This document shows positions 23,921-58,020 of a DNA stretch of 64,000 nt, piece by piece (positions within the stretch are counted from its first letter, which is position 1; each line of letters opens with the position of its first letter). Below the pieces are notes generated by a model. The model was given only the letters and a program-made list of their open reading frames with translations. It made no database searches and had not been told where the DNA came from. Position numbers and translations under genes: made by a program. Origin of the DNA: Gaeumannomyces sp. JS-464 (lineage: Eukaryota > Ascomycota > Sordariomycetes > Magnaporthales > Magnaporthaceae); the NCBI GenBank assembly GCA_002197995.1, contig NGZR01000002.1, forward strand, positions 9,238,001 to 9,302,000, given 5' to 3'.

Positions 23921-23925
23921 CATCC

Positions 23926-25489: not shown

Positions 25490-26960
25490 CGGTCGTTCTG
25501 TGCTTCGTGTAAGTACTTACCCATCTCCCATCTCCCATCAGTCGAATCGTTTGGTTGACGATTTTATTCCATATAGTCGCGTGGAGGGGCTGTTTCGCCA
25601 TGACGGACTTCAAAGCTACGCTCGCCCCGCGTAAGTTCAGCGCCCTCGTACAGGGGCTTATTATCGCAGCATTCCTTCTTAGACAACTACCTAGGTTTCC
25701 GGGTGCCTTCTGGCGGGTCGCTTGTCTCAGAAGATCGGCCCAATTTGCCTTCGCTGTCTTCGCCTGCTTCGGTATCGAGGTCGAAATCGCAACCACCGTT
25801 GTCTTTCCTACTACATCGGCTTCTCCCACTAGCAAAGGAGTGTCCTTGCCGGCCTGGTCTCATCGTCGGAGCCCTGGTCATGGCCTCTGCTGTGCAAGTT
25901 CTCATTTCCATGTTTTATTCTCCCATTTCTCATTTCCACCACCATACTTACCAGTATGATTTAGCATTTACGAGAGCGTGGGCCAGTTCTTGCGGCGTGC
26001 CGGTCACCCCGAAAAGGCGCCTTCGGCCGGCTGGTCCGTGACGCGCAACGTCAACCAAGGGCAACGTCGGCCTACGCTCTCTGTTCCTCGGTCCTCGACC
26101 CGGTCTGCCGCCGCCGCTTCCCGCTCAACCGCGAGGATCGCGTATACCACGAGCTTCCTAGTCTCGCTCGCCGCCGTGCTCGAGCTCGTCGCCCTCGTCC
26201 CTTTGAACCTACCCGAAGCACGTCGCCCATTTCTTTTTATCCCTTTCCCCTTCCCCCATTCCTTTCCTTTTCCTATCCAATCGAATTTATTAGCAAACCT
26301 TTTCGTTATTTTTTAGTGGTGTTATTAGGGGCTGTTTCGCCATGAGGCTTCCAACATAAGGGCCAGGGCCATATCCACTGGCACGACCAGTCCCCACCAT
26401 GATGCGTCGTCTGCTCATCGGCGTCGGGCTCCTGGCTGGTCAGCAGCTCACCAGGCGCTTGGAGTGGTAGTAGACGACGAGGGCGACGCGCCTGGCCCAC
26501 ATCAGGCGCGTGTTCTGCTGGCGCAGCGGCGACACCAGCGCTGGAGAGTTGGCCCCGCTCGGGAGGAGCGTCGCCGGCGAGTGGCCCTCGCCCTCGAGCG
26601 TGAAGCGGAGGTCGCACAGCAGCATGCAACAGCCACCAGTGGTTCTCGTTGTCATGCCCGTAATGCTTCGGCATCGTTCGGGTCATGTCTGGGACCGCCT
26701 AGTTCGCATGTCTCGGCATCGCCACCCAGGCATCCACCAACTTCCACTGGCAGCAGATAATGTCTGGCAAGTTTCTCGAGGGCTTGGCCGTTGGCGGCAT
26801 CAGCGTCGTCCCGCCTCTTTACCAGGCCGAGACCGCCCCGACGTCAATCCGCGGAATCGTTCTTGCGTCGTTCCTGCTCATGATTGTCGTTGGCATTCTC
26901 TTAGCCCAGTTTTGCCCTGTTCCAGCTTATACCTTTCTGGCCGCTTTAATGGTCGCGGAT
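25490..26960 (+). pseudogene. Scrambled MFS sugar-transporter relic
   Basis: Several pieces match the transporter at 50052-51670 but are out of order and frame-broken. 25490-25530 repeats the end of its second exon and the following GTAAGTAC(T/C)TACCCATCTCCCA intron start. 25850-26040 corresponds to the next transmembrane segments (LIVGALVMASAV ... AGHPEKAPSAG). 26370-26465 matches its MMRR(L)LIGV-LAGQQLT segment. 26640-26960 matches an earlier part (MSGKFLEGLAVGGISVVP-PLYQAE). Between the last two, 26460-26640 reads on the minus strand as an unrelated regulator-like fragment. A TAG at the same codon occurs here and in the 50 kb copy. No functional product is possible. Confidence 0.7.
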
Positions 26961-27105
26961 CCCGGATCACGGGATCGTCGGGTTCCCGAAGGGCCGAAGA
27001 GGCCACAGGAGGGGAGCGCACGAACAAGCCTTTGGTGATCTGGTGGAACCTGTATATAGGTATCCTGTTCTCTCCTATTTCCTCTCCCACTTCCACTCCC
27101 TTTTA
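26957..27105 (+). repeat. Interspersed repeat R1, partial copy
   Basis: It shares the core CCTTTGGTGAT followed by GTATATA and a GTTCTC block with copies at 31215-31590 and 59535-59935. It directly interrupts transporter-derived sequence. It may be a fragment of an LTR. Confidence 0.5.
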
Positions 27106-27329
27106 ATCAATATTCCCCTTGCCTTGCACACACCGGCCTGTGGCCTCCAACCTACCCAATATACCACCTTTTTAGCCACTACAACTGATCCCCTGCGAGC
27201 TCTGTCAGCTCGGCGGCATCGTTGTAGAGCACGGCCATCCAGAGATGAGGCCCCCAAGCTGATGCAGAAATCCAGCTTTTCCACAATCTCGGGGCCGGGG
27301 GCAGGCAAAGTGATGCTATCCAGAGTAGG

Positions 27330-27440
27330 TTCCAAGCCGGGGACTGGGGGTGTAACACCCTGGGTGAACCCCTTTCCTTTTCCCGTTCCCCTTTCCTGTA
27401 CCCTTTACTTCTTCGCCTTTCCCACGCCCCTTTCCTATGC
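27330..27440 (+). repeat. Interspersed repeat R2 with polypyrimidine tract
   Basis: A GGGTGTAACACC-CTGGGTGA block followed by CCTTTCC/TTCCC-rich sequence. Related copies lie at 29985-30080 (minus) and 58455-58550 (plus). The termini resemble transposon ends but no full element is visible. Confidence 0.45.
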
Positions 27441-27631
27441 CATTTTAGACACACTGCGAGTACCACTGGTTACTCGCCGTGCAAGTACCTGAAGAGCAGC
27501 ACGTCGGGCCGGTCCATCCCTGGCCTCCGCACTGGCCATAAAGAGGGGCGCACTGATACCACCGAGGAGGTTAGCGCACTGAGTGTCATGGGTGTTCTAG
27601 AGCCATGCTGTGGAAAGACGGGACTGTCTTC

Positions 27632-28914
27632 TTACCGTTCCGCCTCCGCCTCCGCCTCCTCCTCCTCCTCCTCCTCCTCCTCCTCCTCCTCCTCCTCCTC
27701 CACCACCACCGCCGCCACCACCGCCGCCGCCTCCGCCGCTGCTGCTGCCCAGGCGTTCAGTATAGCGTTGTATGCGGGCTTCTTGTTGTACGAAGAGTCC
27801 CAGATGAGGGCGTTGCCGCCGCTGATCCAGCTGTGCGCGTCGGTGAAGCCCCAGGCGGTGATTCCCACGCGCAGCGGCTGACCTGCACGCAAGCCTGAAC
27901 GACATAGCCGTAGTCGGTCGCTTGCTGCGCGAACTGGCTCGATCCACCACGGGCAGCGATGTCCTTTTTTTTATCACTCTTGTCAGCCTCGATCCTGTCA
28001 TCCTGGACTCTGCACATGACGCAGGGTCAAGCTTACAAGCTCGTGTAGGCAACGTCGACGCCCAGGGCCGTGAAGGCGTTGAGGTTCTGCACCAGGGTGC
28101 TGACGGGGCCGACCTGGCCGACCGACATGTGGCCCTGCAGGCCCATGCCGTCGATGGGGGCGCCGGCGGCCTGGACCATCTTGATCAGGTTCTGGGCACC
28201 CGTGGCCTTGCGGCCGGGCTTGTCGCAGTTGTAGTCGTTGTAGTACAGCTTGGCGGCCGGGTCGGCGGCGCGCGCGGCCTTGAAGGCCAGCGGGATGAAC
28301 TCGGTCGCGCCGATGGTGCGGCCCCAGACCGAGTCGCTCGTCCGGTACGAGCCATCCTCGTTGAGCGCCTCGTTCACGACGTCCCAGGCGTAGCAGGAGC
28401 CTGAGGCAGGAGAAGGAGGCGTTACAGGTCTTGTTTAGTTTATTCCCCTTCCCTTCCCTTTCCTTTCCTTTCCTTCGCCAGCAAAGAGCAAGACTGACCT
28501 TTAAAGTGCCCGACGACGTTCTTGATGTGCGTCTCCATGATGCTGATCAGCGTCGCCTTGTTGAAGCCGCCGTTGGCGACCCAGCCCGGGACCTGGGAGT
28601 GCCAGATCAGGGCGTGGCAGCGGACATGGGCGCCGATGCTTTTGGCCGTCGACACGATGCGGTCGGCGTTGCCGTAGTTGAAGTTGCCGCGACGGCTCGA
28701 GCGCGTCAAACTTCATCTCGTTCTCGGCCGTGTACGAGCCAAAGTCCTCGCCGTTCTTGACGATGGGGCTAGCACGGCCGTCGTTGAGTACCGTCGGGTT
28801 CACGCAGGTGCCCCAGTATCGCCCCTTGGCTTTGGCCCGCGCGTTCAGCCCGTCGGCCGACACGAGGCCCGACGCGCCCAAGGCGGCCGTCAGGAGTTGC
28901 TTGAGGGCCACCAT
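27632..28914 (-). pseudogene. GH10 endo-1,4-beta-xylanase, pseudogene
   Basis: The family cleaves xylan backbones outside the cell. The minus strand starts with a signal peptide, MVALKQLLTAALGASGLVSA, then GRYWGTCVNP and SYTAENEMKFDALEPSR. A 1 bp frameshift follows, then NFNYGNADRIV, GAHVRCHALIWHSQVPGW, an intron at 28401-28498, and [17 protein letters not shown] with the acid/base Glu. At the nucleophile block, YTEL is broken by another 1 bp loss (read as YTSL), after which matching sequence is lost for about 90 bp. QFAQQATDYGYVV follows, then one more shift before GITAWGFTDAHSWI and ALIWDSSYNKKPAYNAIL. The tail is a microsatellite-encoded Glu run. Three frameshifts make it non-functional unless they are sequencing errors; the lost segment after the nucleophile argues for real decay. 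Confidence 0.85.
27642..27737. repeat. (CCT/CTC)n microsatellite grading into (CAC/CGC)n
   Basis: About 95 bp of trinucleotide repeat at the 3' end of the GH10 relic. Read in the gene's direction it encodes a run of 15 Glu preceded by Ala/Val, and it replaces the normal C-terminus. Confidence 0.9.
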
Positions 28915-28919
28915 GGCTT

Positions 28920-30790
28920 GCCTGGGATGTGATAAACAGGGTCCTAGGGCGGTTCTTGGACTCCCAAGAGTATGATGATCTCGAACCTCCTGTCCAGAGC
29001 CTGTGCCTGACCAAGGAAGACCAACAGTACATCTTTATATCCACCGGCGTTGTACTCGCATTGCTGTAGAATCTACCCCCACCGCTGATATCTCCTTCTC
29101 CGGTCGTCAAGGTCCGCTCGAACAAGGGCCGTCGCGCCTACCTCGCCCCTTTTCTTGCTTGTGTCGCTCAGGGGGTGGACCCCCCTTTTCCCTTCTGTGA
29201 TGCGGCTTCCACTGTCATTGGCGGCATTTGTTGCATTCTCCAATTCCTTACATGGCTCCGACAGCTCCCCGGATTCTTCTGTGCGGGGAAACGGACGGAC
29301 TGGGGTGTGCTCCCCCGCCTGCTCCGCGGCGTCAGCCTCCGAGGAAGCTTGATTAGGACTTCATCGGCCAAGCTGCGGCCGGAATCTGACCAGGAAGTGG
29401 TCCTGGATCCGACTTAGGTTGCTGGCGCTAGACGAAAAAGCAGGCCAGATACCACCCTACACCACCCAGCAACGGCTCTCGGTCACTGTTTACTGGAAAT
29501 GGACGAGATAGGCATTGTCACGTTGGTCGCGCCGCCCGTGCATGCTGTTCGGGATTCGGCCGGGGTTGCCGGGCCTGGTGGGGGTGCTGTCCGAGCGCAG
29601 GAGCCGTACAAGGTCGTCGTATGGTTGCTGTTCTCACCCCCTCTCCCCCATCACGCTCTCGGAGCCCGGTCAAGTCCGAGCTGTAGAAAGGTCTGACAGC
29701 GATCGACGCGCAAAGAACAGGACCGAGCTCGCCTTTCAACTTCGGGAAATTGATCTCCCGTTTCACGGACCATATGGCCTCTATTCTTAGCGGTCGCCCT
29801 CGCCACATCCTTCCACCGTCGTGAAAAGCACTCCCTCCAATAAGGCCAGTTGACGCGATGCTGCTCTCACACTTGAAGTCGAGATTCGAGCGCTTGTGGC
29901 CGTGGGAAGAGGGTCAGGCTAAGCGAAACTGCTAGTAGTTATGTCTTGGTCCATAATTACTGGAGGAAATCATGGGCAGCACAGTAGCATCACGCGGAAT
30001 CCCGCTCTTTCTTTTCTTTTAGGAAAAAAGGAAATAGGAAAGGGTATCACCCAGGAGGTGTAACCCCCCGTTGTGCCTAGCATCCCAGCCCTTCCATTTG
30101 ACGAGGAAAAATGCGCTTGATCTTCCCACCTCTCCTTTCTTCTTTGCCACCCAGAATGGCCTCGACAGCCCAACAAAGCTACTTCGACTCGCTCATTGTT
30201 AAGAATACTCTGGAGTCAGACTCTAATGATCTCGGAGCTGGTTCGTCGCAGAAGAGGCCGGTGTGGCTTTCCCAAACCACCCTGTGACTTCAGCTTGTAG
30301 GGACCTCTGGTATCTCAACAAGAGGGAGTGTAGGGCATCGGATATTGACTATTACAACCAGAGCATACCCTACCCGGCCTAGCCCACGGCAGTCTACCCA
30401 ACCGCTAATTGCCATCGCCAGCGTGATGCCTATTACCAGACACTACAGCCCCAGCCTCAGGCGTGGGGACCTGCTCCGAATACCATCACCTTGCCTGCCC
30501 CCCAACTCAACTGCTTCAACACATCCTTTATATATATATATATGTATGTGTGTGTATGTGTCATTTTGACTTTGCCATAAGGTCACGCTGCCCGGCGCCG
30601 CCTACCACTTCCGGGGGTGTGCCTTGTGAGAATATATGTATTTAACTGACTGGAGGTGGGTAAAAAGAAAAAATTAAACATACGAAGGCTGCCGACCCGA
30701 GACACGAACACGCAAAGATAAAAACTGAAAGCATTCCTGTGCCAGTAGGGGGTCCCGTCTGGATATCCCAATGCCATCCGTCGCCTCTCT
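28920..30790. other. Gene-free stretch with scattered repeats
   Basis: It begins with the 5' flank of the GH10 relic. An R2-type repeat lies at 29985-30080 on the minus strand, and a (TA)n(TG)n simple repeat at 30525-30560. A 44-codon open frame at 30156 begins MASTAQQSYFDSLIVKN but is unrecognised. Nothing else is supported. Confidence 0.45.
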
Positions 30791-30794
30791 GCCT

Positions 30795-31190
30795 TCACGC
30801 CTTGCGCGGATCCGCCCCGCGCAGGTACAACTCGTCGATCTAAGGCATGATTTTTCCTTTAGGCTCAATGACAAAGGCAAAAACGAGCACAGCCAGCCCG
30901 AAGCAGCAGACAAACACAAACCAACAGAATAAACGGGTCTATGCCACAATGAACCCCGCCGTGCTTGTAGTCACGGCGTTAACCAGCCAATTTGTTTTTA
31001 TCGAAACGGTTATCGGAAAAGGGCGATGCGCTGGCGGGAATAACTTGGCAGTTATGGCCCGCACCAGGGGTACCCGCGTGGACGCGAAAAACAAGCCGAT
31101 TCTAACCGCCGAGGATTGGGATTAATATTGCAGCCGTAACTGTGAAAGCATTGAGGGCAAACGCAACCGGGCGCTCGGAGGCGGGGAACA
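30795..31190 (-). pseudogene. C-terminal sugar-transporter relics, two partial copies
   Basis: The first minus-strand piece (about 31190-31105) reads LLFPASERPVAFALNAFTVT. The second (about 31085-30795) reads PLVRAITAKLFPPAHRP, then TNWLVNAVTTSTAGFIVA, a stop, then GLAVLVFAFVIEPKGK and IDELYLRGADPRKA. Both match the end of the transporter at 51370-51670 (PLVWAVCAELYPAAHRP ... VIEPKDKTLDEIDQEYK ... SPRKA). So the same C-terminal motif occurs twice within 400 bp, opposite in orientation to the 25-27 kb relic. No complete transporter remains. Confidence 0.75.
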
Positions 31191-31214
31191 GAAGGTAGAT
31201 AGATGATACGTCTT

Positions 31215-31590
31215 GGTTGACACCTTTGTGGAAAGGGGGGGGGAAATAGGGAAAAAGAAACAGGAAAAAAAAATAGGGGAAATGTTGGACTCTTGTCGCC
31301 GGCGCATGCGGCCGGTAGGACCGTGGGGGTCCCGGATCTCTAAGTCCCATGATCTCCGACCACGAGATCCGTGGGACCCGGGGGCCCTTATGGAGAGGAG
31401 CGGAGGAACAGGCCTTTGGTGATTGGGATCGTGTATATATACATGTTCTCCCACACCATCTCTGGCTGATACATTTCCTTTTTACGCAGAATATAGGACC
31501 CTTGATTCCCAGATCTAGACCATCGTTGTTCATAACCTTTGAAGCTCTCTGTGCGTACAGGAGTAACCCCTACTCCTACCAATAAAAAAA
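31215..31590 (+). repeat. Interspersed repeat R1, longest copy
   Basis: It runs from a GTTGACAC start through a purine-rich stretch, a GC-rich segment with short inverted repeats (GGGTCCCGGATCT/AGATCC-GGGACCC), the CCTTTGGTGAT-TATATATACATG core and a CAGGAGTAACCCC end. It ends about 10 bp from the alpha-galactosidase stop codon, in its 3' flank. An inverted relative is at 59535-59935. The length and TATA-like core suggest a solo LTR or small non-autonomous element, but no target duplication was found. Confidence 0.55.
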
Positions 31591-31598
31591 GCACCCCA

Positions 31599-33313
31599 TC
31601 AAAGCTCATCTTTGGCAACGCGGTCAAGCGTCTTGGCCCTAAACTGACCCTGACTCTGACCCTCCTTGGCAATCCGGCGTAAACGCAGGACGGCAGCGGC
31701 GTGTCTTTTAACGGGGACCGAGAGAACACCACCGGCCTCGACAACGGCGATCTTCTCGCCAAACAGACGCGGATCGCCCTCCCGCAACCCGACTTCGTAC
31801 GGCTTCTCGGTGGCATTGTACCAGTTAGCGCCCGCTAGCACGGCCGCGCCCTCATCCTCGGTCCGGGAAGCCAGGAGACGTGCCGCCGTTTCAAGCGGCA
31901 TCCGGTGAGCCCACAGATCGTGCACGGCCCAGTCGAAGCCTACGTGAGGCGCCGACCCTCCTGGGCCGAACGACGTGAAGATCTCGGACAGCGGAACCGA
32001 CATGTTCTCCAGGCCCTCGGCGCCAGCGTTGAGCAAGACGACAGCCTGGTCACCGTTGGCCAGGTAGCCGCTCCAGACGTGCGTCTCGCCGACGCCGTAG
32101 ACGTCCTTGGCAACCCCGTCGATCACGCGGTTGACACGGGTTAGCGAGCGCCCGTGCGGGTCCTGGCTGAGCGCGATCACAGCTGGGTTGTTGATGATAG
32201 ACAGGGCCTCGGGCGACATGGCACGCACGTCGTTGCCCAGGAATAGCGGGCTCTTGAGGGCGGCCCACAGCGCAAAGTGCGCCTTGTACTCGTCGTCGGT
32301 CATGCCGCCCTGGCCGACCTCGAGCATGTCGAGGTCGCTCCAGCCGCCGGGGATGCTGCGGTCGGCAAAGGCGGCGACCTTGTTGAGGATGAAGAGGACG
32401 CTGCAGTGGGTGCCCGGCGCGATGCAGGCCGGGTCCGACAGCTGGTTCTTGTCGCAGCCACAGAGGTCGTCGGGCCGCGTGAAGGAGTCGTAGATGTCGC
32501 CCGTGACGCGCCATGAGTTGGCGATGGACATGCCCCAGGTGTGCACCAGGTCCTCGCCCCAGTTGCACAAGTTCAGGAGGACGTTGCGGCCCGTTGCTCG
32601 CAGCGCGTCCGACATGGCCTTGAAGCGGTTGAAGGAGATCTGCGGCGTCCCGATGCGGCCCATGTGATAGCAGCTGTCGTACTTGAGCATGTCGACGCCC
32701 CAGTCGGCAAAGCTCTGCGCGTCCTCCTTTTCGTGGTCGAGCGAACCCTCTGGTCGCGGCGGCGCCGGAACCTCCGTCAGCACGGCCGTCCCATACGCGC
32801 CGTATTTTGGGACAGGGGGGACCTGGGTACTAACCAAACCTGGCACAAGTCATCTCTCCCGCGCTCGAGTACATGCCGTACTTGAGGCCCATGGCGTGTA
32901 GGTCATCCGAGATGGCCTTGAGGCCGCGCGGGAACTTTGCGGGCTCGGGCTGCAGCTTTCCGTGCTCGTCGCGGCCCTTGGGGTCTTGCCAGCAGTCGTC
33001 CAGCACCACGTAGTTGTAGCCCAGGTCGCGTAAGCCGAGGTTGACGATCGTGGTTGCCGTCGACAGGAGCAGATCCTCCGAGACATCACAGCCAAAGGCG
33101 TTCCAGTTGTTCTTTTGCGGGATTTGCGCTGTCAGCCGCCCTAGTCCGTTGCACCGAGGCTAAAGAGGGAAAATAGAGAGAATGGACACTGTTTCATACC
33201 CATCCCATCGGCGGCGTCAACGCCAGCCCGTTGTTGATGGCTCCAGCGCCTCGGGCCAGGAGCAGAGGCAGCGCCCCGGCTACAGCCATGGGACCAGGTC
33301 TTCGTGCTATCAT
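31599..33313 (-). CDS. Secreted GH27 alpha-galactosidase
   Basis: Hydrolyses terminal alpha-1,6-galactose from galacto-oligosaccharides and galactomannan. Exons are 33200-33313, 32835-33111 and 31599-32749. The introns of 88 and 85 nt join in frame to 513 aa. Residues 1-26 are a signal peptide, followed by NNGLALTPPMGWNNWNAFGCD, the GH27 start. LDDCW is at 75-79. The nucleophile is D155 in LKYDSCY, the acid/base lies in GGWSDLDML (about 265-273), and PLFLGNDVR follows. A beta-sandwich follows, ending in VKRHAAAVLRLR. About 22 extra residues come after that, finishing in KDEL, an ER-retrieval-type tetrapeptide that is unexpected on a secreted hydrolase. Its neighbours are a Zn2Cys6 regulator and an alpha-glucoside-type permease. 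All key residues are present and there are no frameshifts. Confidence 0.93.
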
Positions 33314-36526: not shown

Positions 36527-38200
36527 ATGTCCGCCCCCGAGCCCACCAAAACCGCCGGCGATGGCGCCGAGCCCACGGTCGAGAAGGTCGTGTCCACGGC
36601 CACTGGCGGCCCAGGCCTCGACGGCAGCCATGCCGCCGACGAGACCAACGCGGCGCTGGCCAACGAGCGCAACATGACCATCCCGCAGACGCTGCGCTTC
36701 TGGCGCAAGGCCGTGCTCTTCTCCTTCTTCCTCTCGCTCTGCATCATCATGGAGAGCTACGACACGTCGCTCATGAACAACTTCTTCCCCTTCCCGGCCT
36801 TTCAGAACCGCTTCGGCGACGAGCCCAACCCCGCCGGTGGCAAGGTCGTCTCGGCCCGCTGGCAGACCATCATCCTCAACGGCACCCAGGTCGGCTGCAT
36901 CATCGGCCTGATCGTCAACGGCTATGTCACCGAGTGGCTCGGCTACAAGAAGACGATGCTGGTCTCCATGACCGCCATGATCGGCGCCATCTTCATCCCT
37001 TTCTTCTCCACCGGCCTGCCCATGTTCCTGGCCGGAGGACTGGTCCAGGGCATCCCCTGGGGCGTCTTCCAGACCCTCGCCGTCTCGTACGCCGCCGACC
37101 TGTGCCCCACCCACATCCGTGCCTACATGACCTCGTGGATCAACCTTTGTTGGGTTACGGGCGGCCTGCTGTCCACCGGCATCCTGCGCGGCCTGCTCAG
37201 CATCCCCGGCGAGCTGGGCTACAAGATCCCCTTTGCAGTCCAGTGGGTTTGGCCCGTGCCCATCATGGTCGTCACCCTGCTCTGCCCGGAGTCGCCCTGG
37301 TGGCTCGTCCGCCACGGGCGCGTCGACGAGGCCCGCGCCGCTGTCCGCAAGCTCATCACGCCCCAGGACGACGTCCAGTTCGACCTCGATGCCCACGTGG
37401 ACATGATGGTGGTGACGGACAAGTACGAGAAGCAGATCAACGCCGGCGTCAACTACCACGACCTCTTCAAGGGCGCCGACCGCCGCCGCACCGAGATCGC
37501 CCTCATGGTCTTCGTCACCCAGGCCCTCTGCGGCGTGCCTTTCATGGGCTACGCCGTGCAGTTCATGACCAACGGCGGCCTGCCCACCGAGGCTGCCTAC
37601 AACGTCAACGTGATCCTCAGCTGCGCCCAGTGGCTCGCCTGCGTCGCTGCCTGGTTCATCATGACCCGTCTCGGCCGCCGCTTCCTGTACGTCTGGGGCT
37701 TACTGGTCATGGTCGTCATCCTCTTAATCGTCGGCTTCGTCGGCCTCGCCCCAGGCGCCGGTACCACGGAGAACCAGGAGGCCGCGCGCGCCGTCGCCGC
37801 CCTTATTGTGCTCATGCTGGTCTGTTTCCAGCTCAGCCTGGGCCCCATCTGCTACACCATCGTGGCCGAGATCCCGTCGACGCGCAACCGCATCAAGACA
37901 GTCGCCCTGGCCCGCGCCAGCTACAACGCCGCCGTCTTCATCAACAATGCCCTCATGCCGCAGATGGTTGGCGTGAACGCCTGGAACTGGGGCCCCAAAG
38001 CCGGCTTCTTCTGGGCCGGCGTGGCCTTCGTTTTCTTCCTCTGGACCTACTTCCGCCTGCCCGAATCCAAGGGCTTGACCTACGCCGAGCTCGACCTCCT
38101 GTTTGAGCACCGCGTGCCAACCCGTGAATTCTCGCAAGGGCGTGCTGACCAGCTCAAACCTGCCCTGGCCGACGCTGCCGCGCAGAGCGAGAAGCAGTAG
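36527..38200 (+). CDS. MFS sugar permease, alpha-glucoside:H+ symporter type
   Basis: An intronless 557-residue protein with about 12 hydrophobic segments and a long polar N-terminus, as in fungal maltose/alpha-glucoside permeases. Sugar-porter signatures are present: NGYVTEWLGYKKTM after TM2, CPESPWWLVRHGRVDEA before the central loop, TRLGRRF after TM8, and FFLWTYFRLPESKGLTYAEL at the end of TM12. YDTSLMNNFFPFPAFQNRFG after TM1 fits the MAL-type subgroup. It should sit in the plasma membrane. Divergence from the Zn2Cys6 gene and closeness to an alpha-galactosidase support uptake of a di- or oligosaccharide such as melibiose, maltose or raffinose products, but the substrate cannot be read from sequence. 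No disruptions. A further in-frame ATG is not needed; MSAPEPTK is the natural start. Confidence 0.92.
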   Translation: MSAPEPTKTAGDGAEPTVEKVVSTATGGPGLDGSHAADETNAALANERNMTIPQTLRFWRKAVLFSFFLSLCIIMESYDTSLMNNFFPFPAFQNRFGDEPNPAGGKVVSARWQTIILNGTQVGCIIGLIVNGYVTEWLGYKKTMLVSMTAMIGAIFIPFFSTGLPMFLAGGLVQGIPWGVFQTLAVSYAADLCPTHIRAYMTSWINLCWVTGGLLSTGILRGLLSIPGELGYKIPFAVQWVWPVPIMVVTLLCPESPWWLVRHGRVDEARAAVRKLITPQDDVQFDLDAHVDMMVVTDKYEKQINAGVNYHDLFKGADRRRTEIALMVFVTQALCGVPFMGYAVQFMTNGGLPTEAAYNVNVILSCAQWLACVAAWFIMTRLGRRFLYVWGLLVMVVILLIVGFVGLAPGAGTTENQEAARAVAALIVLMLVCFQLSLGPICYTIVAEIPSTRNRIKTVALARASYNAAVFINNALMPQMVGVNAWNWGPKAGFFWAGVAFVFFLWTYFRLPESKGLTYAELDLLFEHRVPTREFSQGRADQLKPALADAAAQSEKQ

Positions 38201-38319
38201 CACTGTAATTATGTAGTCATACTTATCGGCCGTAGTCTGCCCTTGATCGGGCCTCTTACAGTCAATATTAATGCGAGTCTTCTTACTACGGCTTCTCTAT
38301 TTCCTTTCCTATTTTCGTT

Positions 38320-38780
38320 CCTACCTGAGGATCCTCTGGTTTGGGCGGTAACGGCAAAGCTTACCCGGCGGCAATCGTTTTGTGGCATTGACCCTGGCCA
38401 ACGACAAAGCTCTCAATTGGGATCCTCGCGCCGGCCCCTTGCCCAAAGGGTATCTACGCTCGACGGCACCAACTTCCACAGCGCCCACGATACTCAGACG
38501 TCTCTTCATTGGCGTCATCCTCCAGGCGCGCCAGCCGGACATCCCGATACTCCCGCCGCCGGATGGAACCGGCATGCTCGCTATCTCAGTCGTTTTCATT
38601 ACGGCGTTTGCCAGCACGTGGCGTCCGCTTGTTCGGGCAGGGCAAACCCCTTCCCGACGGCTTATCCCCCCATCGCGTCGGCGCTCGCGAATTCAATCAT
38701 TGCCGGCACCATCAGCATCGCCATTTTTTTCCTTATTGACTCTTTCGGGCGTCGTCTCGATCTTGTCTCGCCGCCTCCTC
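38320..38780 (+). pseudogene. Scrambled sugar-transporter relic
   Basis: Pieces of the same transporter family in the wrong order: DPLVWAVTAKL (38325-38362), RRLFIGVILQARQ (38490-38530), GMLAISVVFITAFASTWRPLVRA (38570-38640) and SIIAGTISIAIFFLIDSFGRRLDL (38695-38765). In the 50 kb copy the second piece precedes the first. The pieces are in different frames. Polypyrimidine sequence just upstream (38300-38325) resembles that near the R1/R2 repeats. Confidence 0.65.
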
Positions 38781-39165
38781 CCGGCCTCTCGTTCAGTACC
38801 ATGGCTCCACCCAACTTTCACACAGTTACGGCCACAGTGACTCACCCCTCAGCAGCCGGGATCAGTCATATTACGTGCCTTAATATTCTACCCTTGTTAA
38901 CATTCATTGAAGACTACTCGCAAGGCTTTCCTAACCTTCCGGTTATTTCCCGTAGGGTGAATGATAATTACAACCTGCATGCTTCTGGCACTGCTCCGAC
39001 GTCTGCCCACCAACACGAAGATGAACTGGAAGACGTGTCCGCCCTACGCCTTTCTTCCCCACTCAGTAGTTCCAGGAAGCTCGGTGAGCCCTGCCAAACG
39101 CCGACGTTAGCAGCTATTCGCCTCCGAGATGCTTGATCACGCACGGTGGAAGCCTCGGAGAGAGA
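38781..39165. other. Intergenic, no supported gene
   Basis: A frame is open on the plus strand but has no recognisable content. It serves as the 3' flank of the DUF1996 gene. Confidence 0.4.
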
Positions 39166-40607: not shown

Positions 40608-41537
40608 TGTAGCAGAGGAGGACAACCAGGTTCCGAGGGAAACAAAAAGACGGATTGAGGCTCTCGTCGTTGTTTTCTCTGTACGCCGTCGAGCGACAAT
40701 GCGAATATCTACCTAGATAGACCAGAACGCCTGGGTTTGACCACGTCCAGCTCCTCGCTTCGACGGGCAGTTCTTGTGTAGTCGCCGGCCTGCCCGCTCT
40801 ATTAATACGTCAACCAGACGCCGGCAGCATATGCCACATCCTATCGTTGCAATGGCCATGCTGCCGATATTGCGGGTAGAAGTGCCGATCGCCTGGCGAA
40901 GCCGGCAAAGTCGGCGGCAATATCGCGATCCATCCACAATCCATCCGCAATCCAATCACAAGTCGCTCCAGATATAAACTTGACGACCCGCTCTAGATTA
41001 AATGGCCAAGACCAATCTCCCATACGGGCCTCGCATGCTTCACAATATCCTGAATGTAGCCGCCATATCACCGGCGAGGTTGCATCAACTTGGGAAGATA
41101 TTGACCACCACATGTTCCTTTGAAAATGCGCGAGCAAGCCGAGACAGGAATAAATAATGCCTATCGCGAGACATGTCCGACCAGGTTGGGACGCTCGCCT
41201 GTCTGGGGCCGGGCCGATGAGCATGGCGGCACAGAAGAACCACCACCTTGCATTGGGGTATCTGGACAAGAATAGTGGGATTATATATTAAAGCCCCGTC
41301 TGGGCCCCCACGAGATCAAGTTAGTCGGGTCTATGATCCCGAGCAGCCTCGCAGCCCTACGATTCCCTAGGTACATGGCCCTGCCCACATCGATCCCCTC
41401 CCGCAGCCCTGTCCCATCCATGTTGTCCGCCCTTTGGCCGAGCCGAGCTGGTACGCACATAAACGCCACATGTTTAAAACCCTTCGAAAGCATCTCTCTG
41501 GGCCTGGACCCGCATCGGAGAAACGGTCGGCTCGAGG

Positions 41538-41670
41538 GGCCGGACCCGCACCGCCTGGATGGCCAGCAGACCGGAGACGCGCGCCCGTGCCAGCGGCCGC
41601 CTGGGAAGGCCGGCTCCGCACCGCTTGCCTGACCAGCAGACTGGAGACGCGCGCCCATCGCAGCGGGCGG
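41538..41670. repeat. Imperfect tandem duplication, about 70 bp period
   Basis: Two units (41538-41599 and 41608-41670) share GGCCGG-CCGCACCGC, ACCAGCAGAC/T-GGAGACGC and GCGCCC segments in order. Confidence 0.7.
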
Positions 41671-49273: not shown

Positions 49274-50051
49274 TAGATGCAACTACGTTTGTCTTGGAAA
49301 AATTTTTCCTTTCTTTCTCTCTCTCTTCTTACTTTGACTAGAGCATGGCGCACAGGAGATCAGGCATGGGACGAGATACCACATTGGGCCAAGGGGCTTG
49401 GGCTTGGAGTTTTTGTCTACATTTTTCTTGTCTTTCTCAACAGTGCCCACTACAACCAACACAGGACATCACGAACTATCATGGCGTGCATATACATGTT
49501 TCTTTCCTATCTTGTCTTTCTCTTCTGCGTTTGCTTCTGGCATCACACGTCACGCGAATTGCGTCACCATCATCTGCCTTCCATGATTCTTGCTCTGACA
49601 GATTGCGCTGTAGAATTTCGCGTCATGCGGGCTGCCGCTGTGTCCCTTCCATTCTCTTTCTATCCACATCATCCTTGAACTCAAACTCAATGGCCTTCTG
49701 CCAGGGCACCCACCTGCCTCGACAACCACTCCTCGATTGCCTCCTGCTTCCTGGGCAATCGAGCAGTGGTTGGTCCACCCTGGCAGGAGGCCAGAAGAGG
49801 ACGGGGAGCGGTCTACAAAACCCCTCGCTCACCGTCCTTTTCTCCCAATCTTCATCTCTTCCGACACAACATCATCCACAACACTTTTTGGCCCATCAAC
49901 TACCAGCATCGCCAGCATCACGCATTTTTGGTACCGAATTCTTAGCTGCATTGATTGCGTCTGATACTATTGTCTTCCGTCGTCTTCTTTCCCCGCCGTC
50001 ATCATTTTCCACCGTTGTCGACCTCCATCGTTGTCTTCATTCTCCACCACG
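49274..50051. other. Intergenic flank
   Basis: Trailer of the Arg-rich gene and leader of the transporter pseudogene. CT-rich near the right end. No gene supported. Confidence 0.45.
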
Positions 50052-51670
50052 ATGGCGAAGGTCACGCCCCTTGCCATCGCCGCCGCCTTGATCCCCGCCA
50101 TGGGCGGAATGGTCCTTGGCCATTCCATGTATGTCGCCCGTCTCTTTTCCATACTCATTCCCCATCTCCATCCTTTTCCATCCCCATTTCCCCCCCTCTC
50201 CTATTACCGTCCCGATTCCATATATGTTAGCTAACGTTTCCATTTCCATTTAGTGGAGTGATCGGTGGTATCCTCGTCATGCCAGACCTCATCGACCGCC
50301 TTTCGCCAGGCGGTTTCTCTCCCACAGTCAATGGCCTCATCGTCTCGGCGTTCCCCGTCGGATGTCTTTTTGGCTGTCTCGCCACAGGCCGCCTTGCCAA
50401 ACGCTTCGGCGTGATCCGGGTCATGTCTGGAGTCGCCTAGTTCGCGTGCTTTGGCGTCGCCGTCCAGGCCTCGACTTCCCACCACTGGGCGCAGCTGATG
50501 TCTGGGAAGTTCCTTGAGGGCATCGCTGTTGGCGGGATGAGTGTGGCATGCCCGCTGTACCAGGCCGAGACCAGTCCCACATTCATGCGCGGCACCGTCC
50601 TGGCCCTATTTCAGCTCCTGGTCGTCACGGGCATTTTCGTTGCCCAGCTCCTTACCTACGGCACTTCGACGATGATCGGGTCTCTGTCCTGGAGGCTCCC
50701 GGTCAGCATCGAGATCCTCTTCGCTCTCTCCCTCGCCATCGGCAGCCTCTTCCTCCCTGAGAGTCCCCAATGGGCGCTCATCCATGGACGCGAGGAAGAA
50801 GCTCGTAAGACTGTGGCCAGACTCAACGGTGTCAACGTCAACAACCCTCTCGTCACGGACATCATGGCCAGTTTCCGCCACCGCCAAGCCCAAGACAAGG
50901 AGCAAGACCACACCCATTGGCACGACATATTCACCAGCCCGACCATGATGCGTCGCCTTATCATCGGTGTCATTCTCCAGGCCGGTCAACAGCTAACCGG
51001 CGTCAACTATTTTTTCTATTATGGCACCAGCATCCTGAAGACGATCGGTATCGGCAGCGGCTACGAATGTTCCATCATCCTCGGTGGCGTCAACCTCGCA
51101 TCTACGCTTGCCGGCATATGGATTGCAAAAAAGTGCCGTCGCCGCCCTGCGCTGATCATCGGCGCTTCCATTATGTCCGCGTGCTTCGTGTAAGTACCTA
51201 CCCATCTCCCAGCTCCCATCTCCCATTTCCATCCTATTTCCAACACGGTACTAACCAGCTTATGTTAGCATCTATTCGTTGGTCGGTCAGTTCTCGCTCC
51301 ACGCCGGCCATCCGGAGAAGACCCCCTCGGCGGGCAAAGGCATGCTTGCTGTGACGGTCCTTTTCATCGGTGCCTTTGCCACCACCTGGGGCCCCTTGGT
51401 GTGGGCAGTCTGCGCGGAACTGTACCCCGCCGCCCACCGCCCAGTTGCGCTTGGTATGGCCACGACGGCCAATTGGGGATGAACGCCATCATCGCTGGCA
51501 CCACCCCACTCATCGTCGCCAGGATCCGCTTCCTCTATGGACTTGTTTTTGCGGGCTCTTGCGCCTTGCTCGCCGTCTTCGTCTACTACTTCGTCATCGA
51601 GCCCAAGGACAAGACCCTGGATGAGATCGACCAGGAATACAAGGACCACGTGAGCCCCCGCAAGGCTTGA
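50052..51670 (+). pseudogene. MFS hexose-transporter-type pseudogene, nearly complete
   Basis: Three exons, 50052-50128, 50254-51189 and 51269-51670, with two well-formed introns (GTATGT ... TTTAG; GTAAGT ... ACTAACC ... GTTAG). Translation gives MAKVTPLAIAAALIPAMGG, GGILVMPDLIDR, LAKRFGVIRVMSG, SGKFLEGIAVGGMSVACPLY, LPESPQWALIHGREEEA, AGQQLTGVNYFFYYGTSI, GPLVWAVCAELYPAAHRP and IEPKDKTLDEIDQEY. These are the standard sugar-porter landmarks. Two lesions are seen: an in-frame TAG at 50438-50440 and a 1 bp loss near 51480 (TANWG-NAI). Both are needed to inactivate the second half, but the TAG alone truncates after about 85 residues. Relics at 25-27, 31, 38 and 58 kb derive from the same family, and one shares the TAG. 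It may be recently lost. Confidence 0.85.
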
Positions 51671-52018
51671 GCTGGTGGTGGAGCGGTGGAGTGGTGTGTG
51701 GTGTGTGGTGTGTGGCGTGATCTCTGGTGTGTGTGTGTGTATGGCGATAAGATGGACAAGACTTCTGGACGGCAGTATTATTATCTTTTGGACGGCAGCT
51801 TCATTACCCGAGACCCCAGATTGCGTGGAACACATCCGTAGACATATTCTCGTTTTGCAGATACCCTCCTAGGGGTGGTTTGGGCGAGATATCCATCCTT
51901 AACAATACACAGATTCATCTCGTACAACACGCCCGTGATCATCACTGAACCGTCTCCTCGAGATGAGAACTGCCATTGTTACACATCTAGTTGACTACCT
52001 AGACAAAGTACCCCCCCT
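51671..52018. other. Intergenic, no supported gene
   Basis: A GT-rich simple stretch at 51690-51745 lies between convergent genes. Confidence 0.5.
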
Positions 52019-53255
52019 TTACAAGAGAGCCAGGGCCGCAACGGCGGCGACCAGGCCGAAGAAGCCAGCGCCAGTGGCGGAAGCACCGCTGAAGACAGGC
52101 TGCGACGGGGTGGGCTTGACGACACCGCCAGTGGGCTGGACGGCAGGCGAACCAGTGGGGGCGGCGGTGGTCGGGATGGCGGAGAGGTTCTCGGTCGTCT
52201 CGCACGTGGCCTCGGGCAGAGGGAGCTTGACGGTCGGAGAGTGGTCGGCGGGAGGGGTGACGGTGTGGGGGTTCACGGTGTAGGACTGCGTCACAGGCTA
52301 GGAGGAGGGAGATGAGGGTCAGTACTGGGCAAGCTGACAAGGAGGGGATAAAAAGAAGAAGAAAAAAACTTACGCATTCGGTGGTGTAGACGGTGACAAC
52401 ACCAGAAACGTCGGTGACGGTGACAACGGTGGAGCTGGGGGTAGCCGTGGTCATGGTGTCGTTGGCAAAGGGGAAACGGGTGGTGGTGGCGGCCGGGGTG
52501 GGGGCGGGAGCGCTGGACTTCTCGGGGCCCTTGAAGGCGGCGAGGCGGTCCTTGACCCAGGCGGCAGCGTCCGGGGTATCGACATCGAAGTAGTTGAGGT
52601 GCTCGTCAACAACGTGGCCGCCAGCGCAGACGGGGTCACCGGCGTTGCAGTAGTCCCTCCAGACACCAGCGTAGTTGATGGCCTTGGCCAGCTGGTCGGT
52701 GTTGCGGGGGAACAGGCCCCAGTGGGTGGCGCCGCTCTTGTAGTTGTAGGGCTGGAAGGCGGTGTGCCTGACGTCGCCGAAGGTCAGGATGGCGGCGACC
52801 TGGCGACCGGCAGGGCTGGTGATGTCGAGGGCAGGGATGAAGGGCACGACGCAGCCGTTGAACTCGGTGCTGCCGGCGCCGGAGAAGATGTCGCCGACGA
52901 CCTGGCCGCCCTGAGAGAAGCCGCTGACGACAAGCTTGGAGTCGGGGCAGCGCTTGTTGTAGGCGATGATCTGGGCGCGGCCGTTGGTGACGCCCTGGGT
53001 GATGGCGCCGCAGTACTCGTCCTCGAGCATGTTCTGCATCTGGATGTCCTCGTAGTCGCACGACGACAGGCCGTTGCAGATGGCCGAGACGAGCTTGCCC
53101 TGGCGGCCGGGGTAGGGCTCGTTGTTGCCCTTGCCAAGGAAGATGTGGACGTCGGCGCAGCTCTCCGTCACCATCTGGCGCGGGGCGAGCTCGGGGAGGG
53201 CCGAGGCGACGCCAGCCAGGACGGCGGCGCGCATGACGGAGGCGGCGGAAGGCAT
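52019..53255 (-). CDS. GPI-anchored cutinase / CE5 esterase
   Basis: A serine esterase of the cutinase family (CE5), which hydrolyses cutin esters or deacetylates xylan outside the cell. Exons are 52374-53255 and 52019-52297; the 76 nt intron joins in frame to 386 aa. The signal peptide (about 1-19) precedes a Cys-rich core. Ser114 lies in VVSGFSQGGQVV, Asp207 in YCNAGDPVC and His219 in VVDEHLNYF, the family's triad in the right order and spacing. ICNGLSSC and CP-DSK match disulfide positions. After residue 245 a Ser/Thr/Pro-rich linker (about 120 aa) leads to a hydrophobic tail, GFFGLVAAVAALALL, preceded by small residues, which fits a GPI signal. Free cutinases are about 220 aa, so this is the long, wall-anchored kind. 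Intact. Confidence 0.92.
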
Positions 53256-55390
53256 GGTTGTCGGAGGGAGGGGGGAGCAGACGGCTGGCCAGCTGAGCGA
53301 ATGGATGGCTGAAGAAAGTATTCAAGCCGAGGGAGCGAGCGAAAGACTGGGGAGCTGGGCCGGTCGGTTGGGTTGGCTGGAAGACAGGAGTGCTGGCCAA
53401 GAGCAGCAGAGAGCGACGAGAAGGGCGTGGCGGCGGCTTTTGTGGACGGCCACGACGCCCCCTATCGAGACCTTGTGCCGGCCAGCCGGGCGCCTGGCCC
53501 TGCGGTCGACTGCGTGTTGGGCGTTGTTGGCTCATGGTGGGGTGGGCTCTGGGAGTCGGTGGTGAAGTGAGGTGCGAAGGTGGAGCAGAGCCACCATCGC
53601 AATTTCGCAGCGCGGGGTCCACAATGTTCGTGATGGCACTGTGGCCGTGGGCGCGAGCATCACCAGATGGGCTCGATGGGTGGGGCGCGGCCCCGAGGCA
53701 GGCTGCTGATTTGCTGGCGCCTCGCCTGGCCGCCTCCTCGCAGCGCGACCTGTCAATCTCTCAATCTCCAGGGACTCGAATGCGGCTGACAGACACTACC
53801 CATTCCACGGTGGGAAGGCTGCCCGTTGATGCGGAGCAGATAATGGCACCCCTGCCAGCCCCACTGCTTCTCTGCCTCGGCCAGGGGAGAGAGGGGAAAA
53901 GGGGTCCTCCTGGGCGACGATGGAGCCTCCACGCTTCCAGTTCCAGTCGCCTGCCTGTTTGGGACTCTGCCCTGTGCAGATCGGGTGACAGGCTGCCCTG
54001 CCAGGCACGGACTGGTTCGGGCGGCGCGAGAAGCGAGCGTGTGTGCTCGCGCGAGGTGTGTCATCTCTCAACATTGACGTCTTTGATGCGATTTTCCCTT
54101 GCGGCAGACTGACATGCAGAGCTAGGTACCTACGTGCCTACTAGTCAACCAGCACTAGAGCACAGCGACGACGCTAGGTATCCCGCACAAGGACATTCGA
54201 TTGACAGAGCAAGCTGGTCAACTAACACCGGACCACAGCGGCGACACCATTCCGTAAAAGGAGGGCTCCCCCGTCTTTCCCTCGCTGCCAGGGGCCCGAA
54301 TATTGGCACTTCGTATAAAAAGTGGCCTCTGGCGGCCCTGGGAAAGCTTGACTGCTCCTGTCTCATCCGTCCCCACGAAAAACGCGAGTCGGTCATCACC
54401 ATACCGACCACAAGAGATCAGCAGCCGGGACAGCCGTGCGATACGATCGGTCCCAGGCCCATGTCTGCCTCCTTCCCAGGCCGTTGCGCTTTATTTAGCA
54501 GCAGCTCATCAATGTTTTCCTCTCGTTCCGTCGTCCATGGCCACCTGCCACAATTTTTCCGGCTGTCGGCACAGCGTTCGATGCAGCCTGCCAACGACTC
54601 CGAGCCTGTGGAGCCTCGGAAAAACGTCGCTGCAACCCTTATTTCCCTGCTCAATGCCTCCCAGGCCACCCCCCCAGATAAGGGGCAGAGGACTGGGACT
54701 GGCGTCCGCCTGCCCACACCGTCTGTCAGCAGCCAGCCACGTGCCAACCAGCCCTCCCCTCCATCTTCTTCCGGCCATGTCTCGTCGGTCGAGACGCCCC
54801 CGGACGGCGGCTCTGGCGCTACCCCGACTCGGAGGTCGACCTGCAAATCTTCTTTGCATGTGCCCCACTGTGCCGACTGTGCCGGCGGCCAGTCTCCTCC
54901 GGCACCGGGCCCGTCAGGAGCTAAGCACGGCTTCCGTCGGGACACAGCGGCTCGCCACGGCGCTCGCCACACACCGACCTCGACATAGAATCACCCAAAC
55001 AGGCCTTCGCTGTGCATGCGTCGTGCATGTTGATCGCACCCTCCCTCAACAAGCAGGCCCCCGCTGGATGGATGGTCTAGAACAGGCTCGGATGCTTGGA
55101 CCGAGCTTCGCATCTGCCATTGATGTGGACGACTGGGTGCCGGCAGATGCAACCATAAGCCACGGCACTCCAGCGTCAACACCGATCATCGGGCAGCCCG
55201 CATATGCTCACCCAAACCCGCGGGGTGTGCTAGGTCACCAATGTCGCTGAAAGGGCGCACCGCAGCGCTTGGCGCCATGGAGGGAAACATGATGCACCTT
55301 AAATCCCAGACTCTGCAGTTCGGCTGTGGTATTGTCGTCTTTTGATTTCGCAGATGAGGGCCGGACACCGTCTCCGGGACTAGCACACCA
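53256..55390. other. Gene-free stretch
   Basis: Upstream flank of the cutinase and of the next relic. Overlapping open frames of up to 315 codons exist at 54134-55250, but they read as Ser/Pro/Arg-rich noise with no recognisable motif. Confidence 0.45.
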
Positions 55391-55399
55391 TAAGCCCCG

Positions 55400-57211
55400 A
55401 CTATTGGCCGCCATTGGAGACACCGCGCACGCAAGAGCACAGGCCCGACCTTCGGCAGCGCCTTCTCCAGACCTGGCTCCGAAGTCGGCCCCTGAGCCGG
55501 TCACTGTCGAGCCCGGGGCCGGTGCTTTCATCGCCCAGGACGCCGGGCATCACCAGCGGCGCCCGACAGCGACGTGTCCGAGGGCCCTTTCCCCCTGTCG
55601 GCCGCCAGCCAGCCCATAGACACAGAGTCAGGCACCCTAGCCTGGCTCTGTGTTCTCGGCGCCTGGCTCTTCCTCCTACCCACCTATGGTGCGATGATTC
55701 CATTGCTACACAGCCACCTGCTACCATGAACTGGCGTCCCGCAGAGATACACGGCATGTATTGACAGCAATGCTCGGGACAAAGGATTCATGCAGGCCAT
55801 CGGCGTCATCCAGTCCTACCCCAGCTGCACCAGCTGGACGCCTATTCGGCCCGCGACATCGGCTGGATCTCTGGAATGCTGACCTTCCTGACTCTGCTTC
55901 TGGGCATCCAGGTGGGGCCGGTTCTCGACGTCTACGGCTCCCGCACCTAGCTCCAGCCTCTGCCCTCATCGTGACCGCCACGTTCTTCTTGCTGGCCGAG
56001 TGCGAGCCTATTGGCACTTTATGCTCTGCCTCGGTATCCTAGGCGGCGTCGGCGGCGCCTTGGCATCCACTGTCGCCATGTCGTGTGTTCGCCAAACTGT
56101 TTGTGCGCCGCAGAGGCCTCGCCGTCGGTGCTGCCATGAGCGGCTCCTCCATCGGCGCCATCGCTATTCCTCTCATGCTGCGCCAACTGTTCTCCACCAT
56201 TGGGTGGACCTGGGCTATCAGGCGCTGGGTTCTTTGTCGCCGGCACCATGAGCTCGGGGTTCTGTGCCTCATGCCCTATCAACTGGTCGCGATCCCTACT
56301 GTTTCCCTTTTGGCCAACGATCAGGGCGCCGCCCCTCTGCCGATGCATGTTACGGCCAGGACCCAGCTACGATCCGTATGAGCACAGAACAGCGGGCCTT
56401 GAGGAGGACATGTTCATGGCAACCGGCACGGCATTAACCCTCCCAGCCGGCGAAAAAAGGTCTGCAACCCTCAACTTCTCCGCATTCAACTCCCGTCCTT
56501 CTCACTCATCACCGCGGCCTCTTCCTTACCGAGTTCGTCGTCTACGGCATCAGCGGCTTGCTGCCACATACGCCATCGTGGCCGGCTTCAGCCCCCAGAC
56601 CGGCTACGCCCTGATAGCGCTCGCGAACGATGTGGATGTCTGGGCCGGATCATCCCGGGCGTGGCCGGCGACCACTTTGGGCACTTCAACGTGCTGCTGC
56701 TGAGCATCGTTCTCACCTTGGTGTTCATGGCTACCATATTTGTTCCCTTTGCTCCCCGATCGCTCCAAGCCCTTTACGCCTTCTCCGCCCTCTGGGGTTT
56801 CGGGTCGGGGTCGTTCCTAGCCCTCACGCCAGGTTTGTCCCACGGCCGTCTCCGGCAACCATCATGTGCGAGCGGAGCACCACTGACTCCCTCGTTTGCT
56901 CAGTTTGCATGGGCAAGACGTGCGACCCCAAGGATTATGGGCGCTACTTTGGTGAGCTTCCCCGCCAGAATGTCTTCTCCCTCGAGCCATACCTGACCAT
57001 GCATGTCTTTATGGATTTAGGGACCATGAATTTTGTCGTTAGCTTCTCGCTCCTTATCTGCCTTCCCATCGGTGGCCACATGCTTGAGGTGATGGGACCG
57101 ACAGCCCTGTCCGGGTTCTACCTCGCCATCGTCTTCCTGGCCGGCGCATGCTTCTTCGGCGCCAGAGCGCTGCTGGCTGGCGGCCTGACGAATTTTAGAC
57201 AGAGGATCTGA
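55400..57211 (+). pseudogene. Monocarboxylate-transporter-like MFS pseudogene
   Basis: In order, with many frame changes, the plus strand gives: GTLAWLCVLGAWLFLLPTYG (TM1), LDAYSARDIGWISGMLTFL and GPVLDVYGSR (TM2-3), and FMLCLGILGGVGGALAST. These are followed by RRRGLAVGAAMSGSSIGAIA, LRQLFSTIGWTWAIR, ALIALAN-GRIIPGVAGDHFGHFN and LYAFSALWGFGSGSFLALTP. The last piece is NFVVSFSLLICLPIGGHMLE. This is the MCT family layout, including the usual TM4-5 RRG-A-G-SGSS block. TAG codons (such as after YGSRT) and at least four frameshifts exclude function. Introns may account for some breaks but not all. The N-terminal limit is approximate. Confidence 0.75.
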
Positions 57212-57815
57212 ATTCTGGTGCCGAGGCACGACCTGAGGTGCCACGAAGCGAGTGGATGCCCCAAGGCTGATCCGTCTTGATCAGCTTTGGACTGAGACCA
57301 CGGAAGCTCGGTCGCGTCACGATTGCTCTTCAACAGTTACAGAGCACCCAGAGTGCCTTGTACCGAATTTCCATCACCCTGGCGCACACGTGTATATATG
57401 AGGCCAGAGGGTCTCGCCCTCTACCACAATTGTTTCAGTAAATCAGAGACAGATCGATCTTCTAGGCCTACTGCACGCCCTCTCCTCTGCAAAATGAGGC
57501 CATGTCATATGTTGGCAGGCCTATCTCTGCTCAGCCCTGGAGACCACTAGAAGCGAAACAAGGCTTCTCGAGGAAGCTGCCTGTGCGTTCGAGATTGACA
57601 TGTAGCTCAGCCGTGGGCGCGTGCAGCTCACTCAGCCTGCACCAACAATATACCCGAGCCCCGCGTTTTGGCAATCGCCCTGGGCCCTCCAGGTCTCTCA
57701 ATCCGACACCTCAATCATGGCCCAGTTCGCATCGCCGAGCAACCAAACCAAGATGATGTTGCCCAGCGCTCGAGTCCCGGTCCACACAGAAACCCCTGGC
57801 CCGAGCGATGACTGC
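57212..57815. other. Intergenic, no supported gene
   Basis: Between two transporter relics; no recognisable content. Confidence 0.4.
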
Positions 57816-57819
57816 AACC

Positions 57820-58020
57820 GTCCGGCCGCCCACGCAATCGCAATGGCCACCGATTGGAGCGTCAACTAGACGTCAGCAGCGTTTTTCGCTCCGTGCTCGA
57901 TCCGGCCTGGGGCCCTCTAGTCTGGGCGGTCACTGCTGAGCTGTTTCGCGGTGCGCACCGTCCGTCGCCCTCGCGGTCGCCACGGCCCATAACTGGATGG
58001 CCAACACTCAGCACCAGCTG
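57820..58020 (+). pseudogene. Sugar-transporter scrap
   Basis: AAHAIAMATDWSVN (57820-57868) matches HRPVALGMATTANWGWN of the 50 kb family. It is followed, not preceded, by DPAWGPLVWAVTAELFRGAHRP (57900-57965) and a THNWM-like continuation, so the pieces are in inverted order as in the other relics. Confidence 0.65.

Follow-up and report, generated by a model that had tools for sequence, protein, structure and literature searches.

How can pieces of a single gene come to lie at several sites along a chromosome, in an order that no longer follows the gene? The question is raised by a 64,000-bp stretch of the Gaeumannomyces sp. JS-464 genome (the window: contig C12, positions 9238001 to 9302000, in an assembly of 53.0 Mb and 34 contigs), which carries one long, disrupted copy of a sugar-transporter gene, here called W50, and shorter pieces of the same family. 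A first-pass annotation had noticed motifs of one transporter at five sites (25.5-27, 30.8-31.2, 38.3-38.8, 50.1-51.7, and 57.8-58.0 kb) and had reasoned that tandem duplication cannot give shuffled segments, so that repeated rearrangement or capture by a mobile element was needed. The analysis below indicates that the sites are probably the eroded remains of head-to-tail clusters of anciently diverged sugar-transporter copies, which were once under selection and were later shortened by deletions.

The 50 kb copy and the relic pieces of the window

W50 was delimited from its reading frames and from the PF00083 profile (Sugar_tr, the sugar porters of the major facilitator superfamily, MFS), which it matched at C12:9288324-9289199 with 266 bits against a curated cut-off of 22.3. 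Two C/T-rich introns separate its three exons (approximately 50052-50129, 50255-51190, and 51282-51667, with limits taken from the reading frames), and the nearest solved structure to the exon-2 piece was facilitated glucose transporter member 1 (5eqg, E 2e-30). This copy had been taken as an unbroken exception to the disorder around it, but two defects disrupt it, an in-frame TAG (50438-50440) and a break in the frame near 51476-51482. A complete open frame for the whole transporter is absent in W50, and the remaining copies that were read are partial.

A sensitive blastn search of 50001-51700 against both strands of the window returned W50 itself and eight further pieces: 25500-25539 (+), 25832-26031 (+), 26392-26452 (+), 26662-26909 (+), 31088-30795 (-), 31191-31158 (-), 38534-38640 (+), and 57906-57984 (+). 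Searches with the exon peptides (tblastn) added 25588-25745, 26352-26387, 38478-38534, 57866-57964, and 57961-58005, so that all five of the annotated sites carried pieces. They were read as follows:

25500-25590 (+): copy A, a hybrid intron from blastn and junction reading, with the exon-2 end and the 5' part of intron 2 (95% identical to 51181-51220), then a 3' part of intron 1
25588-26031 (+): partial copy B, with the exon 2 start and, after a skip, its end, then intron 2 and the 18 residues that come directly after it
26241-26452 (+): partial copy C, with the 3' end of intron 1 and the beginning of exon 2, followed after a skip by sequence from further along exon 2
26662-26948 (+): partial copy D, mid exon 2, 72% identical to 50400-50647, with an in-frame TAG (26700-26702) as in W50
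30795-31191 (-): partial copy covering most of exon 3, with a repeated exon-3 piece ahead of it (31191-31158), and two in-frame TAG
38315-38720 (+): partial copies, with a weak PLVWAV block, a late exon-2 piece, and part of exon 3
50052-51670 (+): W50, the longest copy of the family in the window
57780-58005 (+): partial copies, with a weak PLVWAV-like block (57780-57836) followed by part of exon 3 (57866-58005)

The 25.5-27 kb site thus consists of four partial copies, A to D, each running forward within itself. A PLVWAV-like pattern occurred at nine places in 24-64 kb, while the whole reversed window gave one. Six had family context, the number at which this block had been estimated to recur (31070 on the minus strand, 38333, 38625, 51393, 57793, and 57914); two of them, 38333 (23.1 bits) and 57793 (17.3 bits), were weak, and the remaining three matches (41596 on the minus strand, 47693, and 61169) look like chance. 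The annotated shuffling of order and orientation was borne out in part. Gene order is broken at 25.5-27, 30.8-31.2, 38.3-38.7, and 57.8-58.0 kb, at the last two only if the weak PLVWAV blocks are counted, and the strand varies between the window sites, but it does not vary inside any site. Processed (retro)pseudogenes were rejected because intron sequence is kept in several pieces.

Spread of the family along contig C12

Stretches of C12 outside the window were chosen for having family matches; those named here are L044 (C12:8684001-8693000), L045 (C12:9228001-9238000), and L048 (C12:8667001-8677000). Family peptides gave 86 matches in the examined stretches at E ≤ 0.05, and a sequence-reversed control gave one. 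Of these 86, 51 were pieces; 18 fell within the two long source copies and 16 within other transporters, and one lay elsewhere. A genome-wide DNA search with W50 returned 10 matches, all on C12, and protein matches at family-level identity (at least 48%) spanned C12:8671647 to C12:9295967. An outlying match at C12:316840 (51% over 57 residues) is in a gene that scores higher with outside proteins, and a match on contig C30 (45% over 42 residues) overlaps another transporter. No intact family member was found genome-wide at family-level identity; these genome-wide searches score a limited candidate set, which makes their match counts lower bounds.

The second long family copy lies at L044:3701-5260. 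It contains short internal repeats (50 bp at 84% and approximately 89 bp at 67%), and exon-3 pieces, one of them inverted, lie downstream of it.

Orientation and order of the pieces

Orientation was counted in 11 clusters of pieces, eight of which held at least two. The count left out all of L050-L053, the intact transporter MFS2 (36.5-38.25 kb), the main bodies of both long copies, and the part of L048 below position 900, as well as matches above E = 0.01 (such as L048:5106-5204, L044:5819-5931, and L044:933-1016) and pieces known only via other relics (26241-26345, 38315-38361, 57780-57836, and L045:505-594). Adjacent pieces were co-oriented in 18 of the 20 pairs, and in all eight of those in the window. 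In L048, after one weak inverted exon-1 piece, successive copies followed in one direction. Copies are adjacent within sites, and other genes intervene between sites. By hand count, half of the 18 co-oriented steps (nine) ran backward along the gene and nine ran forward. Random shuffling predicts that half of the steps run backward, which fits, and that half of the pairs are inverted, which does not, whereas short head-to-tail copies fit both. Largely constant orientation favours deletion in head-to-tail copies because free shuffling does not produce it.

These observations suggest a simple course of events. Small head-to-tail clusters of family copies, along with copies at scattered positions, may once have been spread along approximately 0.6 Mb of a single chromosome. 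Deletions, both inside copies and across adjacent ones, would then have cut them down, often to less than 300 bp, and a deletion that starts late in one copy and ends early in the copy that follows it would leave a seemingly shuffled order with constant orientation. The argument that tandem duplication cannot give shuffled segments was not supported, since the 18 head-to-tail pairs are what deletions inside head-to-tail copies produce.

Selection on the copies and its loss

The ratio of nonsynonymous to synonymous change (dN/dS) was 0.07-0.27 in all seven pairs compared, and dS was at least 0.79 in six of the seven, which shows that the copies diverged long ago under selection as genes. In exon 3, six pooled pieces had piece-specific changes of 0.23, 0.14, and 0.38 at codon positions 1 to 3, which gives a ratio of third to first and second position rates of 2.05, against 7.78 in L044 and 3.40 in W50. 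Low dN/dS together with this weakened codon-position bias shows that the copies long served as genes and that the pieces, as seen in the pooled exon-3 set, then lost constraint.

The same in-frame TAG was present in three copies, at 50438-50440 in W50, at 26700-26702 in copy D, and at L045:713-715 (-). Between W50 and copy D, 59% of synonymous sites differed and dN/dS was 0.27, mostly downstream of the common TAG; these two deeply diverged copies thus went on evolving as coding sequence past it. No clear conversion tract was seen around it (identity 61-84% in 31-base windows); gene conversion, readthrough, or chance may account for the common TAG.

Sequences flanking the pieces

Two repeated sequences near the pieces, R1 and R2, had been suggested as shared flanks:

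27303-27388 (+), 30444-30502 (-), 58432-58517 (+), and partial 30027-30071 (-): R2, a block no longer than 86 bp
31368-31582 (+), 59542-59784 (-), and partial 26957-27042 (+): R1, a short element with inverted ends, near the pieces and separate from them

R2 begins approximately 290-430 bp downstream of pieces, in their direction, at three window sites. R1 is dispersed genome-wide. Two copies of R2 are followed by a C/T-rich tract that comes after a possible splice donor. Within the examined C12 stretches, R2 was confined to the window, with a single weak C/T-rich match in L048 as the exception; a genome search with R2 returned the query place alone, missing two other window copies, and so is no evidence of absence elsewhere. 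The simplest reading is that R2 would be old flanking sequence carried along as the copies arose. R1 is approximately 230-300 bp long, with at least 18 matches including the query, and by eye several copies have the ends TGTTGG...CCAACA. It was rejected as part of the transporter unit because it is a dispersed element.

Alternative explanations

Several points weigh against plain deletion in head-to-tail copies. Two of the 20 adjacent pairs were inverted (one downstream of the long copy in L044 and the first pair in L048). The binomial p for orientation (2e-4) is optimistic because three pairs are parts of one alignment, and when backward steps and inverted pairs are taken alone, co-orientation is 9 of 11. 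Nine backward steps of 18 is the random-shuffle expectation for order, and the hand-counted order statistics have no power to separate shuffling from short head-to-tail copies. The exon-3 ratios of the pieces differ from those of L044 and W50 by Fisher tests (p = 3e-6 and 0.009, respectively) that count L044 and W50 sites once per piece, so repeatedly. Two of the four junctions read by hand (L045 near 560, and 38.53 kb) were too diverged to resolve. Finally, a 225-bp piece in L045 is 95% identical to W50 (50341-50565) while its adjacent pieces are 64-76% identical or unmatched, a pattern that resembles recent short-tract exchange and would not come from plain deletion.

The last point leads to the alternative that survives best, in which break repair, by template switching or gene conversion, copied short pieces from other family members to new places and so made true mosaics. 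In L045 the 225-bp piece adjoins a 35-bp piece 94% identical to 26726-26760 in copy D, and the two are joined at the six bases CCAGGC. At 25500-25590 the 5' part of intron 2 passes into the 3' part of intron 1 at seven bases, TCCCATC, common to both partners; because TCCCATC is repeated in the intron, the exact position of the join at 25.53 kb is uncertain. The chance of at least six common bases per random junction of such sequences is 0.0025, and these two overlaps count in favour of deletion. In addition, identity to W50 reaches 95% in the 40-bp piece at 25500, against 66-80% for the other pieces of that site. Together with the L045 piece it points, on sequence identity, to some recent short-tract exchange as a minor contribution on top of deletion. 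That copying made the sites as a whole is possible but rather unlikely, as orientation is mostly constant within sites, the R2 block found downstream at three sites suggests that the original copies were longer, and no pieces of other genes were found. The latter search, with the cutinase, MFS2, alpha-galactosidase, and three raw open frames of the window, gave no extra pieces in the examined C12 stretches apart from matches between transporter families; its restriction to six proteins, three of them raw open frames, is one more point that counts against deletion alone.

Deletion in head-to-tail copies fared better still against capture and spread of the pieces by a mobile element (R1, a Helitron, a Starship, or another), which is very improbable. 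R1 or a partial R1 adjoins, or lies no more than 1.6 kb from, three of the window sites, but the pieces are not enclosed by it, no transporter piece occurred in the 1.5-kb flanks of nine other R1 loci, and R1 was not found in the other C12 stretches examined. Nor were any enclosing element ends common to these stretches, in which Starship and Helitron genes were not searched for. Of the first-pass annotation, repeated rearrangement is supported, and a need for capture is not.

It is also most improbable that each relic is the independent decay of a different transporter subfamily, the outcome that would have contradicted the annotation of a single family. Each of twenty pieces was scored against four sets: the family itself, 23 transporter stretches located elsewhere in the genome (not all of them from separate genes), 119 sister-group proteins, and 120 MFS2-group proteins. 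Nineteen of the 20 scored best with the subfamily of W50, several with a large lead (102 against 74, 89 against 65, and 56 against 40 bits, among others), though the pieces had been preselected by family similarity, so that the result shows closeness and is not an unbiased census. The exception, L048 5.56-5.70 kb, scored slightly better with an outside protein (28.9 against 26.9 bits), four of the 19 led by less than 2 bits, and two gave very low scores (23.1 bits at 38.30 kb and 17.3 bits at 57.77 kb). Two of the three control transporters scored best elsewhere, but the third, L051, was narrowly best with a G. hyphopodioides family protein (63.9 against 59.3), and small score leads therefore mean little. 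By these scores, the long relics belong to one transporter family, while the shortest pieces cannot be placed alone.

Repeat-induced point mutation (RIP), which is reported in the genus Gaeumannomyces in the part of PMC11905480 that deals with it and which has marked two elements of the window (composite RIP index +0.84 at 511-7786 and +0.50 at 16943-23923), is unlikely to have killed the copies and can be given very little weight as the destroyer of the duplicates, because the relic sites tested carry no RIP marks (composite index -0.38 to -0.92 at the window sites and in L044, L045, and L048; L047 and L049 were assessed by G+C only).

Neighbouring genes and other features

The two RIP-marked elements are AT-rich and have direct terminal repeats, approximately 91% identical in 16943-23923 and approximately 84% in 511-7786, and from this structure they look like long terminal repeat (LTR) retrotransposons. 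The neighbours of the pieces include two genes with close relatives in Gaeumannomyces hyphopodioides:

36527-38200: MFS2, an intact transporter, 95% identical to RB595_006904
51999-53255 (-): cutinase, 93% identical to RB595_006901 across 70% of the query; the G. tritici cutinase was 85% identical in the same protein search

These identities put the genome in Gaeumannomyces or in its immediate vicinity, and a bacterial reading of the window was rejected on the strength of the introns and the fungal matches. The closest relative of W50 itself was far more distant. Among the best 120 of its 526 homologues (E ≤ 1e-10), the first was RB595_006908, a G. hyphopodioides "hypothetical protein" with 52% identity over 95% of the query, and the remaining ones were 41-47% identical. 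Like W50, RB595_006908 belongs to PF00083, and its listing names the same longest contig as the best matches of W50's neighbour genes. It is probably not the direct counterpart of W50, because those neighbouring genes are 93-95% identical. Such a difference between the neighbours and the best G. hyphopodioides transporter is expected if the two species lost different family members. The numbering of the locus tags (006901 for the cutinase, 006904 for MFS2, and 006908 for the transporter) would put RB595_006908 beyond MFS2 in the direction of lower coordinates, where the 25-31 kb relics lie.

Two Glycoside hydrolase 10-like coding stretches, at 28126-28751 and L046:538-1150, lie approximately 48 kb apart on opposite strands with 61% DNA identity; they are probably paralogous genes with introns. 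Two tandem repeats of a unit of 70-76 bp, 78% identical, at 41524-41669 had no relation to the transporter. An Rfam scan gave no matches and a tRNA scan found no tRNAs.

Comparison with known systems

PMC11905480 describes RIP and low gene copy number in Gaeumannomyces, and for G. tritici type A a lack of high-copy genes that is unexplained; the words "pseudogen", "transporter", and "subtelomer" were searched for in its main text and did not occur. In the case described here, the known members of one gene family on a single chromosome appear to have been lost without RIP, near RIP-marked elements, which bears on how Gaeumannomyces limits gene copies. It is conceivable, though doubtful, that a process separate from RIP removes duplicated genes in Gaeumannomyces by local deletion and short-tract exchange, reducing a whole multi-copy family to RIP-free pieces of less than approximately 300 bp, and that this chromosome stretch is its footprint; if so, it could be relevant to the lack of high-copy genes in type A (PMC11905480). 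Literature searches turned up no report of these relics, which does not show that none exists.

More generally, gene remnants in broken order can come about through head-to-tail copies and deletions, with no mobile element involved, and orientation is a simple test that separates deletion in such copies from shuffling. The tandem gene arrays with relics of yeasts, as outlined in PMC2822764, are alike in having neighbouring paralogues, degenerated copies, and birth-and-death evolution, with 78.9% direct orientation. Such an array is made up of neighbouring paralogous copies, mostly in direct orientation, with at least one functional gene and no more than one spacer gene between copies. Mostly direct orientation was found here over the eight sites with at least two pieces, as counted above. 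Unlike the yeast arrays, the genome searches found no intact copy, the pieces are often shorter than 300 bp, and the sites extend over approximately 0.6 Mb with intervening genes. Pseudogenes of hemiascomycete yeasts, in the account given in PMC2876123, resemble the relics in truncation by DNA-level deletion, in the duplication of pseudogenes, and in clustering in chromosome regions, but they are full-size or truncated at one end, whereas the present relics have several partial copies side by side within 1.5 kb, with some of the joins inside introns. The genomic islands or "gene dumps" of Aspergillus fumigatus, which the relevant passages of PMC2289846 explain by duplication, diversification, and differential loss, likewise combine carbohydrate and transport genes, pseudogenes, and transposons; they differ in that here one family is singled out. 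Set beside these systems, the relics are a striking case of known birth-and-death decay rather than a new system.

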